Assembly: GCA_030628225.1 (NCBI GenBank)
Contig: DAOVRJ010000010.1
Span: 1 to 18,965, forward strand
Reading direction: 5' to 3'
DNA length: 18,965 bases
Source: Candidatus Zixiibacteriota bacterium
GTDB lineage: Bacteria > SM23-81
Shown: positions 3,171 through 12,600 of the stretch, one piece after another
Numbering within the stretch: position 1 is the first letter of the stretch
Layout of the letters: every line of letters starts with the position of its first letter
Program-made: the position numbers and the translations under genes
Notes under the pieces: model-generated
Databases searched by the model: none
The model's input: only the letters and a program-made list of their open reading frames with translations
What the model was told of the DNA's origin: nothing

Positions 3171-3369
3171 TTCTGGATACTAGATGCTGAAAACCTGAGA
3201 TTCGAGGCTCGAGAGTCGAGATTCGTAAGGGCTGAAATGCTGAGGCTAGAGACTGCTAATTAAGGCAAAAAATATTTAGCCTTTGCATTTTATCCAGCAT
3301 CCAGGATCCGGGATGGGAGGGGATTATGGGGGGAGGATCTAGGATCGGGGATTGGGAATTGGGGGAGGG
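3171..3369. repeat. Degenerate heptad repeat array A
   Basis: This stretch after the methyltransferase stop is largely made of 7-base words. GGATACT-AGATGCT starts at 3175. From about 3196 to 3230 run TGAGATT, CGAGGCT, CGAGAGT, CGAGATT and CGTAAGG. From 3293 to 3369 eleven consecutive 7-mers can be read, including TCCAGCA, TCCAGGA, TCCGGGA, GGATCTA, GGATCGG, GGATTGG and GAATTGG, and they end at the ribosome binding site of the next gene. The middle, 3231-3292, is AT-richer and only loosely periodic. The reverse complement of 3197-3229 matches 5235-5267 of array B at 28 of 33 bases by eye, so part of this copy is inverted relative to array B. No coding function is expected because 7 is not a multiple of 3. 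Confidence 0.75.
3310..3369 (+). other. Two candidate G-quadruplex motifs in the ecfA leader
   Basis: Two sets of four G-runs lie on the plus (mRNA) strand. The first is GGG, GGG, GGGG, GGGGGG at 3310-3333 with loops of 2, 1 and 5 bases. The second is GGGG, GGG, GGGGG, GGG at 3347-3369 with loops of 3, 4 and 1 bases. The second includes the Shine-Dalgarno region of the ATPase gene, whose ATG is at 3373. Folding would be expected to hinder ribosome access. The G-runs fall in the heptad array, so they may be a by-product of the repeat rather than selected structure. Confidence 0.4.
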
Positions 3370-3372
3370 AAA

Positions 3373-5154
3373 ATGATCGAGATCAGGGATCTGGTGTTCA
3401 GCTACAGGCTCAGGGAGGGGGGCCATCTAGTGGCCCTGAACAGGATCTCCCTGCAGATCTCCGAGGGCGAGTCAGTGGCCATCATCGGCTCCAATGGCTC
3501 GGGCAAGAGCACTCTGGCCCTTTGCCTGAACGGTCTGCTGCTTCCCCGGGAAGGAGAGGTGTGGGTGGATGGACTGGACGTTCGTCAGCGGAGCAGCCTG
3601 GAGAAGGTTCGCCGCCGGGTGGGCATGGTCTTTCAAAATCCGGATAACCAGATCATCTCCACCACGGTGGAGCGGGAGATCGCCTTCGGACTGGAGAACC
3701 TGGCCCTGCCCGAGGAGCGTCTGAGGGAGCGGGTGGAGGAGACCTTGCAGCAATTTCACCTGACCGGCTTTCGCCATCGTCCGCCGCACCTGCTCTCCGG
3801 GGGGGAGAAGCAGCGCCTGTCCATCGCCGCCGTTCTGGCCATGCGTCCCAAGTACCTGATTCTGGATGAACCCACCTCGCTGCTGGATCCCGTGGGCCGG
3901 CGGGAGGTGGGGGAGCTTCTGAGACGGCTGCGCGCCCAGGGTGGGGTGACGGTGGTGCATATCACCCAGTTCCCGGAGGAGGCCGCCGAGGCCCAGCGGG
4001 TCCTGGTCCTGCACGATGGAGAGCTGGTCATGGAGGGGTCTCCCCGGGAGATTTTCGCTCAGGGGGAGCGGCTGGCCCGGCTGGGTCTGAGACCGCCCTT
4101 TCCCGTGGAGCTGGCCAACAGGATCAGGAAAGCCGGCGTCCATCTTCCCGAACATATTGACGATATGGGCGAGCTGGCCGCGGGTCTTCTCGCTCTCCCT
4201 CAGTGCCAGATCGATTTCACAGGGGAACCTGACGGAGGGAAGGAGAGGAATGGTCGGGAGGGATCTCCTTCTATGAGCAAGGGTGAGGAGCGGGTGCGGA
4301 CCGAAGACCTGTGTTATCGATACAACGCCGGTTTACCCACGGAAAGGATGGCCCTGCGGCAGGTGAACCTGTCGGTGCGCCGCGGGGAGCTGATCGGCCT
4401 GGTGGGGCCCATCGGGTCCGGAAAGAGCACCCTGGTCCAGCACCTGAACGCCCTGCTGCGGCCCTCCTCGGGGAGGGTGCTGGTGGACGGGTGGGACCTG
4501 AGCGATAAGCGGCTGGATCTCCAGAATTTACGCCAGAAAGTCGGGTTGGTGTTCCAGTTTCCCGAGAAGCAGCTCTTCGAGGAGACGGTCTTTGACGATG
4601 TGGCTTTCGGGCCGCGGAACCTGAGGTTGTCGGACTATGAGGTGGACAGAAGGGTTCGCCAGGCCCTGAAGTTGGTGGGTTTGGATGTCGAGAGCTTCGC
4701 AGCTCGCTCCCCCTTCGATCTCAGCGGAGGTGAGCAGCGGCGCGTGGCCATCGCCGGGGTTCTGGCTTTGCAGCCGGAGATGCTCATCCTGGACGAGCCC
4801 TTTGTGGGCCTCGACCCCAGGGGCTGTGAGCAGATTCTGGGAATTCTGGGGCAGCTTCGCCGCAAGGGGGTGACCATTGTGCTGATCACTCATCACATGG
4901 ACCTGATGGTTCCCCTGGCAGATCGCGTGGTGGTGATGGGGGAGGGTGCGGTGGCCGCCGACGATTCGCCGGAGGGAGTATTCTCCGACTCTGCACGGAC
5001 CGCCCAGCTGGGCATCGAACTGCCCCAGGCCGCTCAGTTGACGGCCCGGCTCCGCGAGGGGGGTTGGCGGTTGGAGGCCACGGTTCTGACCATGGAGGGG
5101 GTTTTGGAGGAGATTTTGGGATATTTGGCAGCTAACCGTGAGAAAGAAGAGTAG
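3373..5154 (+). CDS. ecfA: Fused two-domain energy-coupling factor transporter ATPase
   Basis: This 593-residue protein carries two complete ABC ATPase domains of the EcfA/CbiO class, which power ECF-type vitamin or metal uptake at the inner membrane. Domain 1 (about 1-255) has Walker A GSNGSGKST at 39-47, a Q-loop FQNPDNQ, signature LSGGEKQR and Walker B LILDEPTSLLDP. Domain 2 (about 310-560) has Walker A GPIGSGKST at 345-353, FQFPEKQ, LSGGEQRR and LILDEPFVGLDP. ECF systems normally use two separate subunits (EcfA1 and EcfA2); here both are on one chain. Domain 1 has Gln199 (ITQ) where the switch histidine is normally found, while domain 2 keeps His507 (ITH). ATG 3373 was chosen because GGGGGAGGG lies just before it; an in-frame TTG at 3352 is less likely. 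No EcfT or substrate-binding S component is in the window, so the substrate is unknown. Confidence 0.88.
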   Translation: MIEIRDLVFSYRLREGGHLVALNRISLQISEGESVAIIGSNGSGKSTLALCLNGLLLPREGEVWVDGLDVRQRSSLEKVRRRVGMVFQNPDNQIISTTVEREIAFGLENLALPEERLRERVEETLQQFHLTGFRHRPPHLLSGGEKQRLSIAAVLAMRPKYLILDEPTSLLDPVGRREVGELLRRLRAQGGVTVVHITQFPEEAAEAQRVLVLHDGELVMEGSPREIFAQGERLARLGLRPPFPVELANRIRKAGVHLPEHIDDMGELAAGLLALPQCQIDFTGEPDGGKERNGREGSPSMSKGEERVRTEDLCYRYNAGLPTERMALRQVNLSVRRGELIGLVGPIGSGKSTLVQHLNALLRPSSGRVLVDGWDLSDKRLDLQNLRQKVGLVFQFPEKQLFEETVFDDVAFGPRNLRLSDYEVDRRVRQALKLVGLDVESFAARSPFDLSGGEQRRVAIAGVLALQPEMLILDEPFVGLDPRGCEQILGILGQLRRKGVTIVLITHHMDLMVPLADRVVVMGEGAVAADDSPEGVFSDSARTAQLGIELPQAAQLTARLREGGWRLEATVLTMEGVLEEILGYLAANREKEE

Positions 5155-5278
5155 GCAGGAGGCAGGAAAAAAAAATGCAGAATGAAAAATGAAAAGTGAA
5201 AAATGCAAAATGTTAGGGGCAGTGGAACTTTCTTTTTACGAATCTCGATTCTCGAATCTCGAGTCTCGATTTTTCAGA
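5154..5278. repeat. Degenerate heptad repeat array B
   Basis: The array starts on the last base of the ATPase stop codon and can be read as about 18 consecutive 7-mers. It opens with GGCAGGA twice and an A-run. Then come ATGCAGA, ATGAAAA, ATGAAAA, GTGAAAA, ATGCAAA and ATGTTAG, a transition, and five units beginning at 5239: CGAATCT, CGATTCT, CGAATCT, CGAGTCT, CGATTTT. Bases 5203-5244 align without gaps to 9540-9581 of array C, 32 of 42 identical by eye. ORFs across it are translations of repeat and should not be called genes. Confidence 0.85.
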
Positions 5279-5334
5279 GGGGGTAGCGGAGGCCCGGAGA
5301 GGCTGGCGGCTGGCCGAACGAATAGTGAGGACAG

Positions 5335-5408
5335 TATGGCCGCAGGCCATAGCCAGCCGGTGGCGCGAAGCGCCACGCCGGCCGCAGCGAGGGGGAAACT
5401 TCCCCCTC
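5335..5408. repeat. GC-rich three-hairpin palindromic element
   Basis: Three stem-loops stand in a row upstream of the pyr promoter. The first is TATGGCC/GGCCATA with loop GCA at 5335-5351. The second is at 5356-5382, where an inner TGGCGC/GCGCCA stem with loop GAA extends through GCCGG/CCGGC across a CG bulge. The third is GAGGGGG/CCCCCTC at 5389-5408. None is followed by a T-run, so they are not typical intrinsic terminators. The element resembles a REP-type intergenic palindrome, but only one copy is seen here. The preceding 5279-5334 is GC-rich and without a gene. Confidence 0.6.
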
Positions 5409-5419
5409 AAAAATATTCC

Positions 5420-5451
5420 TTGACATTTCCCCCAGATCATGTTATCTATAC
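5420..5451 (+). promoter_or_regulatory. Candidate sigma-70-type promoter of the pyr operon
   Basis: A perfect -35 box TTGACA is at 5420-5425. An AT-rich -10 region follows within 5442-5451; with a 17-base spacer it reads TATCTA at 5443-5448, and TATACG overlaps downstream. A transcript from here would start near 5455, just before the PyrR-binding hairpin at 5461, which supports the call. Confidence 0.65.
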
Positions 5452-5460
5452 GAAGACAGT

Positions 5461-6105
<645 letters not shown>

Positions 6106-9476: not shown

Positions 9477-9641
9477 TTCTGGATACTGGTAAAAGAAATG
9501 CAAAGTGAAAAATGAAAAATGAAAAATGCAAAGTGAAAAATGCAAAATGGAAAAAGCAGTTGAGCTTTGCCTTTACGAATCCCGGATCCCGAACCCCGGT
9601 TCCCGGTAATTCATCGAATCTCGAATCTCGAATCTCGCTCT
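9477..9641. repeat. Degenerate heptad repeat array C
   Basis: This is the clearest array. From 9481 it reads as 23 consecutive 7-mers in one register: GGATACT, GGTAAAA, GAAATGC, AAAGTGA, AAAATGA twice, AAAATGC, AAAGTGA, AAAATGC, AAAATGG and AAAAAGC. A transition follows, then ATCCCGG, ATCCCGA, ACCCCGG, TTCCCGG, then TAATTCA, TCGAATC three times and TCGCTCT. The word families change along the array while the 7-base period holds. TTCTGGATACT at 9477-9487 also occurs at 3171-3181 in array A. The following 9642-9684 is the unremarkable mtnA leader. Confidence 0.87.
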
Positions 9642-11856: not shown

Positions 11857-12600
11857 ATGGCTATAGTTACCATGAAACAGCTTCTAGAGGCTGGCGTTCA
11901 TTTCGGACATCAAACCCGGCGATGGAACCCGAAGATGAAGAAATTCATCTTCACCGACCGGGGCGGCATCTACATCATCGATCTCAAAAAAACGGTCGAG
12001 CGCATCGGGAAAGCCTACAACCTGATAATGAAGAACGTTGAGAAAGGGGAATCGGTTCTTTTCGTGGGCACTAAAAAACAGGCCAGGGAGGCGGTAACAG
12101 CCGAAGCGCAGAGGTGCGAAATGCACTATGTCACCGAGCGTTGGCTTGGTGGGATGCTGACCAATTTTCAGACCGTCAGGCAGAGCCTGAAGCGTCTGGA
12201 GGGAATTGAGAAGATGAGCCAGGACGGCTCCTTTGAGAAATTTACAAAAAAAGAAGTTCTCAAGCTGGAGAAAGAGCAGAAGAAATTGGAGAAAACACTG
12301 GGCGGCATTCGGGCCATGGGTCGTCTGCCCGGGGTTGTCTTCGTCGTGGACACCAAGAAGGAGAAAATCGCTGTAGCGGAAGCCAACAGGCTGAATATTC
12401 CCATTGTGGCAATACTTGATACTAACTGTGACCCGGATGTGATTGATTACCCCATTCCCGGCAACGATGATGCCATCAAATCCATCAAGCTTATCTCCAA
12501 GATAGTTGCCGATGCCGTGCTTGAGGCGAAGGGGAAAACGGCTGCTATCCAGGCAGCAGAAGAAGAAGAAAAGGCAAAGGAAGAACAACCTCAGGCGTGA
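11857..12600 (+). CDS. rpsB: 30S ribosomal protein S2
   Basis: S2 is a late-assembling small-subunit protein at the head-body junction. The 247 residues include the N-terminal [34 protein letters not shown], the [13 protein letters not shown] segment, the [16 protein letters not shown] segment and the [20 protein letters not shown] stretch, all typical of S2. The C-terminus ends in an acidic-lysine tail rich in EEEEKAKEE, which is variable in the family. GAGAGGAG lies 8 bases before the ATG. The tsf gene follows after 35 bases, the classic rpsB-tsf pair. Confidence 0.98.

Follow-up and report, generated by a model that had tools for sequence, protein, structure and literature searches.

The STRR of heterocystous cyanobacteria are tandem 7-mers located between genes, with few words per genome. 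Heptanucleotides of Calothrix are mentioned in PMC4692102, where the Xanthomonas GGGAATC/GGGANTN and Nostoc GGGGA(C/T)T repeats were studied for G-quadruplexes (Rehm 2015) and Xanthomonas was reported to carry G-rich pairs in convergent orientation. TAACTGA repeats have been described in Beggiatoaceae, Microcystis and Bacteroidetes (MacGregor 2015, PMC4679880). As it is cited in these two papers, a 2007 survey found heptanucleotide simple sequence repeats (SSRs) to be over-represented in prokaryotes, and, as cited in PMC4692102, already proposed a slippage origin tied to a 7-nt polymerase contact. The preference of bacterial simple repeats for a 7-nt unit has been a standing question since that survey.

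The window analyzed here, the whole stretch of 18,965 nt, is one contig of a draft genome (G000; 2.34 Mb in 306 contigs). The sole same-family comparison was with a single genome from another genus (G001). The window contains three heptad arrays, A, B and C, at the positions given by the initial annotation. In array C (9477–9641), the identity between bases 7 nt apart was 0.61, compared to a mean of 0.264 in dinucleotide-preserving shuffles (z 9.4). Array B gave 0.57 (z 7.7 against shuffles), and array A gave 0.55 at 3175–3230 and 0.59 at 3293–3369, with z about 4.5 for each. The coding DNA of the window was flat at lag 7 (identity 0.251). The annotation's view that the arrays have no coding role was supported. 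The arrays share tandem repetition with a 7-nt unit and an intergenic location with the heptanucleotide SSRs and STRR, but neither B nor C consists of one or a few identical words. Instead, as the annotation had suggested, they are mosaics, in which two to three word families are joined together with a non-periodic linker. Array C thus runs through CTGGATACTGG, eight AARTGMA heptads, the linker, which lacks periodicity, CCCGNNY heptads and three TCGAATC heptads, and its lag-7 identity drops to chance at two breaks, 9554–9575 and 9607–9613. The parts of the arrays are listed in Table 1.

Table 1. Parts of heptad arrays A, B and C in the window.
Feature	Position	Strand	Description
Array A, left arm	3173–3230	-	TGGATNC-type then GAGATTC-type words; purine-rich side
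Array A, right side	3293–3363	+	ATCCAGN words, then AGGATCT / GGGATTG words
Array B, left arm	5150–5212	-	AGGCAGG words then AARTGMA words; purine-rich
Array B, right arm	5239–5269	+	TCGANTC words, pyrimidine side; T-rich leader CTTTTTAC ahead of them
Array C, outer left	9479–9495	-	CTGGATACTGGTAAAAG, a TGGATNC word pair with A-rich tail
Array C, left arm	9496–9554	-	Eight AARTGMA heptads; purine-rich
Array C, centre	9555–9575	.	Non-periodic linker, about GCAGTTGAGCTTTGCCTTTAC; 88–100% identical in dispersed copies
Array C, right arm inner	9576–9607	+	Four to five CCCGNNY heptads; align with G001 orthologue
Array C, right arm outer	9614–9637	+	Three TCGAATC heptads

After array B, at 5271–5425, is a GC-rich repeat of about 150 nt. 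Copies of at least 87 nt with 71–88% identity were found in several sampled contigs, and fragments in others; several of the copies adjoin AARTGMA tracts. The sequence CCTTTAAACTAGCACGGTGAGGCTAGAAAGGGC at 5455–5495, upstream of pyrR and kept in G001, resembles a PyrR-binding leader, and all Rfam families scored below threshold for this candidate.

The sequence of array C matched 61 places in G000. Many of these copies have the linker GCAGTTGAGCTTTGCCTTTACGAATC in common, with 88–100% identity. The ungapped alignment of B 5203–5244 with C 9540–9581, previously given as 32 of 42 bases, was reproduced, and a better register yielded 39/42, compared to at most 30 in dinucleotide shuffles and at most 36 after the heptads of C were reordered. 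The word order is indeed conserved between copies, as had been proposed. Since the shared linker is not itself heptad sequence, this conservation is, on the sequence evidence, due to common descent of a dispersed composite rather than to a grammar arising anew at each site. The description of array C as 23 consecutive 7-mers in one register could not be upheld: the phase between unrelated words is arbitrary, the linker carries no lag-7 signal, and among the indels of at least 4 nt between 25 dispersed copies, only 51/215 were multiples of 7. Indels of 7 and 14 were enriched among the copies, yet far from phase lock. In-phase word change does exist elsewhere, as in the G001 orthologue of locus C, which reads GAGTCTC-TAGTCTC-GATTAAC-GATAAAC.

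The tracts within the composite point away from its centre, and a tract read in the pyrimidine orientation often has a T-rich leader ahead of it (CTTTTAC, GGCCTTTAA or TTTTCAC). Words vary at one or two positions, as in TCGANTC, TGGATNC and AARTGMA, and at positions 2 and 5 of GTGAATC; the same N is found in the Xanthomonas unit GGGANTN. Such positional variation counts against plain slippage with random mutation. It could reflect descent from mixed founders, which would account for it, or an unexplained constraint.

Period 7 also stood out in other intergenic DNA, both in G000 and in G001, as expected from the initial annotation. There were 73 lag-7 tracts in the 556 kb sampled from G000 and 35 in 713 kb of G001. 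Lag 9, which is a codon multiple, gave 14 tracts in G000 and one in G001, and all other lags between 4 and 13 gave 0–3 tracts each, with 0–2 in G000. On contigs picked regardless of arrays, there were 13 tracts at lag 7 and four at lag 9, and each remaining lag in the range 4–13 had at most one. The arrays occur between genes and are absent from the genes themselves, apart from one array cluster inside an ORF among the first-sampled stretches (222 kb from G000, 333 kb from G001), edge clusters aside. The G000 contigs C42, C81, C100, C110, C111 and C267 have ends inside or beside heptad arrays, so the arrays probably break assembly and are under-counted.

G001 is syntenic across almost the entire window, with proteins that are 62–86% identical, and its orthologous gaps A and C both contain heptad arrays. 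At locus A, 82 nt aligned with the G001 orthologue with a score of 46, compared to at most 24 for other G001 array loci, and the TGGATNC arm is retained. Judged by this alignment, the array at A is clearly orthologous between the two genomes, contrary to the lack of conserved word order at orthologous loci that would have counted against the annotation. At locus C, the score with the orthologue was 32, while one G001 paralogue scored 34; only the family therefore seems securely conserved, and the identity of the individual copy is uncertain. The AARTGMA block is absent from locus C in G001, which has an (ATTAACG)n block after TCGANTC, joined in phase. Array B is not conserved; the gap B arrays of the two genomes are unrelated, and outside locus A the words turn over between G000 and G001. 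A mode of nested growth, in which outer words are kept and inner ones replaced, was considered and set aside; the pattern is visible at A, and a quartile identity test was uninformative.

Of the 20 syntenic gaps that measured 60 nt or more, five had arrays in both genomes (counting gap B, despite its unrelated arrays), three in G000 only, none in G001 only and 12 in neither (Fisher p 0.0036). Some of the G001 contigs were chosen for hits, which biases these frequencies; the association is probably unbiased. Another dispersed inverted repeat, resembling GGATTCCCGC...GCGGGAATGAC, was seen in G001 at L239 (G001:C33; the orthologue of gap B plus the cdsA–gnat gap) and at L195, where it sits beside or within heptad composites.

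The arrays also have a consistent handedness. When neighboring tracts within 250 bp were counted as purine-rich followed by pyrimidine-rich or the reverse, the purine-left order prevailed by 21:2 in G000 (p 7e-5), 9:0 in G001 (p 0.004) and 44:1 in other phyla (p 3e-12). The loci in other phyla were seeded with CGAATCY, which cannot bias the order. The handedness persisted (13:1 and 8:0) when a pair's two words were not reverse complements of each other, showing that more than hairpin formation is involved. The purine-rich tract was to the left of the pyrimidine-rich one in 25/27 loci, in codirectional, convergent and divergent gaps, and array-free gaps showed no purine-left trend. The handedness appears general, and its independence of word relatedness and gene orientation suggests a process at the level of DNA. 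This is a strong constraint on mechanism, arguing against transcript-level functions and pointing towards a strand-symmetric, two-ended DNA process.

Arrays were also found between genes in unrelated bacteria. Lag 7 exceeded all other lags that are not multiples of 7 in stretches of one Planctomycetota, one Vicinamibacterales and two Acidobacteria genomes, most of them chosen regardless of arrays, and the linked pairs in these stretches were purine-left in 4/4 cases. The words there are mostly the lineages' own (AGTAGCC, AGAAGCA, GAACTTC, ACCAACC, TCCGACT, GTGGGAA), with in-phase word change included. A universal word list was rejected: among 44 genomes of other lineages holding CGAATCY, AARTGMA triples were present in two and TGGATNC in none. 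With these two G000 words nearly absent from those genomes, the lexicons are lineage-specific. Across phyla, it is the period and the handedness that are shared, and the words mostly differ. Few or no arrays were seen in most of the other genomes sampled, and two genomes from the same phylum but another family together had a single tract over the stretches that were read.

The reading that we prefer, and to which we give an even chance, is that the arrays are intergenic mutational products that arose by slipped copying in steps of 7 nt, were spread by recombination and have been passed on by descent, with no function shown. Short stretches would be recopied by a host DNA polymerase with a 7-nt step, through slippage or microhomology priming, giving tracts of 2–8 similar heptads; several such tracts lie side by side in a two-armed composite, with purine-rich heptads in the left arm and pyrimidine-rich heptads in the right. 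Because the handedness is symmetric between the strands and does not depend on gene direction, we infer two-sided growth of the tracts at a gap or break. The new strand at each 3′ end would carry a purine bias, and the right-hand extension would read as pyrimidine-rich, being the reverse complement. Recombination or ectopic repair would then carry finished composites to other loci. Composites stay at their loci across genus divergence and keep changing by gain or loss of units and by base changes. Period 7, dispersal, handedness, retention at orthologous loci and absence from genes are seen in the data; the two-ended growth, the polymerase and the purine bias are what we infer from them. Arguing against slippage, the larger indels by which copies differ are mostly not multiples of 7. 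No Ku genes were detected in either genome, G000 or G001 (both about 92% complete), so that, within this completeness, Ku-dependent end joining was rejected as the joining step. A polymerase contact as the reason for 7 nt was proposed earlier, and nothing in the present data proves it. To our knowledge, a 7-nt step has not been demonstrated experimentally for any bacterial polymerase. It is a tentative and, we think, unlikely extension that many bacterial phyla share an unrecognised synthesis with a fixed 7-nt step, placing purine-rich tandem heptads at both 3′ ends where DNA has a break or gap, and that the handed, mosaic composites are fossils of repair.

Alternatively, the composite could be a small non-autonomous mobile element (MITE or REP-like), with a heptad body, inverted heptad arms as ends and a transposase supplied in trans. 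We regard this as doubtful but credible. The many copies per genome with a common linker would fit, as would the near-inverted outer words CTGGATCCTGGTAAAAG ... CTTTTATCCAGGATCC, which are present in some copies and missing from others, and the genes of the Y1 transposase family, four in G000 and three in G001. In one gene gap, G000 has 16 nt (L289, about 11998–12014), while G001 has 372 nt with three heptad tracts (L189, 5842–6214). This gap, short in one genome and holding a composite of roughly 350 nt in the other, is a candidate empty/occupied site and the sole such candidate. However, no target-site duplication was seen at this site, the only occupied/empty pair compared, and the ends of the copies are ragged and modular, with varying module content. 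No clear scar of break repair was seen at the same single site, which counts against the preferred reading. Reading of the copies showed no constant head, and no GT(A/G)G head with an imperfect palindrome was noticed. Y1 transposases are equally common in array-poor relatives, and at the best Y1 locus (the one inspected of the four in G000) the gene has heptad tracts on both sides but belongs to an IS200-like element that ends in hairpins of its own and lies inside a heptad tract, so that the tract looks like a target and not like cargo. A Y1 transposase as the driver was therefore rejected, being unspecific and, at one locus, part of an element sitting in an array. The IS200/IS605-like element at L305 1330–1940 (G000:C221), with hairpin ends CCCCCGCTCGTGAGCGGGGG, is inside an AARTGMA-type tract, which suggests that heptad tracts serve as landing sites for this type of element.

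A selected function in the nucleic acid, whether as a structured RNA, as a terminator acting in both directions or a loading site for Rho, or as a ladder for a protein that moves in 7-nt steps, would explain why arrays are retained at orthologous loci with fixed handedness and conserved core positions within words, and some loci do out-fold their shuffles (array A, z -3.2). Yet in codirectional gaps, purine and pyrimidine arrays on the sense strand were equally common (18/13 and 20/26), and divergent gaps also hold arrays (5/16 in G000, 1/20 in G001). No preference for terminators or start codons was found. RNA structure as a common feature was rejected as well, since array C folds no better than shuffles (z +0.4) and array loci are only slightly above controls. 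With no Rfam match for the arrays and a handedness that ignores gene direction, the evidence argues against a function at the transcript level. The two G000 words tested are almost absent from other phyla, and each lineage largely has its own words. The protein ladder offered by the annotation is thus not supported, whereas slippage and a dispersed repeat are supported as candidates. We consider a selected function quite unlikely.

RNA-templated tandem synthesis by a telomerase-like reverse transcriptase, with integration at breaks, was suggested by the purine-rich tandem tracts at the inferred 3′ ends and the (A/G)GGGTTA word, which resemble telomere addition, and by DRT10, which yields tandem-repeat DNA off an RNA template (PMC12632851). 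This is very improbable and was rejected: PF00078 genes were absent from G000 and G001 (each about 92% complete) in a search that was positive in three other genomes, and the repeat length of DRT10 depends on the system (9 nt in the best-studied one), whereas it is 7 everywhere here. The fragmented draft, with several contigs ending in arrays, might raise suspicion of chance, low complexity or an assembly artefact, but the large z-scores, the recurrence of arrays in the corresponding gaps of an independent syntenic genome and the heptad arrays in records of named strains, e.g., Xanthomonas and Vibrio, make this explanation negligible. In light of these comparisons, the arrays look like a long-lived trace of DNA copying in 7-base steps, and not like a code or a protein ladder.

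Compared to known systems, the composites share dispersed intergenic positions and inverted arms with REP/BIME and RAYT (PMC2817692), and Y1-family genes are present in G000. In contrast to REP/BIME, the arms are tandem heptads of variable number, and the GT(A/G)G head and palindrome were not noticed. The TAACTGA repeats are heptamers that likewise lie scattered between genes, and in Microcystis they occur among other heptamers, but they consist of one word in short sets, mostly upstream of start codons, whereas here there are many words and starts are not preferred. STRR are homogeneous tandem copies in another phylum, unlike the multi-word composites here. The 7-nt unit is the same as in the SSRs of the 2007 survey, but here several word families make up a composite, the purine/pyrimidine handedness is fixed, and arrays are retained at orthologous loci across genera.

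The arrays also resemble the Xanthomonas and Nostoc repeats (PMC4692102), which are likewise intergenic, have heterogeneous units and convergent pairs on opposite strands, and are kept between species while changing in length and sequence. The Xanthomonas GGGANTC belongs to the same word class as CGANTCC here. Unlike those repeats, most arrays here have no G-tracts (AAAAATG, GAGATTC, TGGATAC), and their arms often carry unrelated words. The at least four G-tract units of a quadruplex are lacking, as AARTGMA, GAGANTC and TGGATNC have no GGG, which is found only in the CCCGNNY and GGGGTTA words. The distinction drawn by the annotation between these mosaics and known heptad repeats therefore stands for homogeneous STRR, but not for Xanthomonas, where heterogeneous heptad arrays are on record. 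The surprising and testable features are that the period is exclusively 7 nt and that the composites are handed, rather than any hidden code. Heptanucleotide repeats and the convergent pairs of Xanthomonas were already known; the mosaic, handed and conserved form is new.
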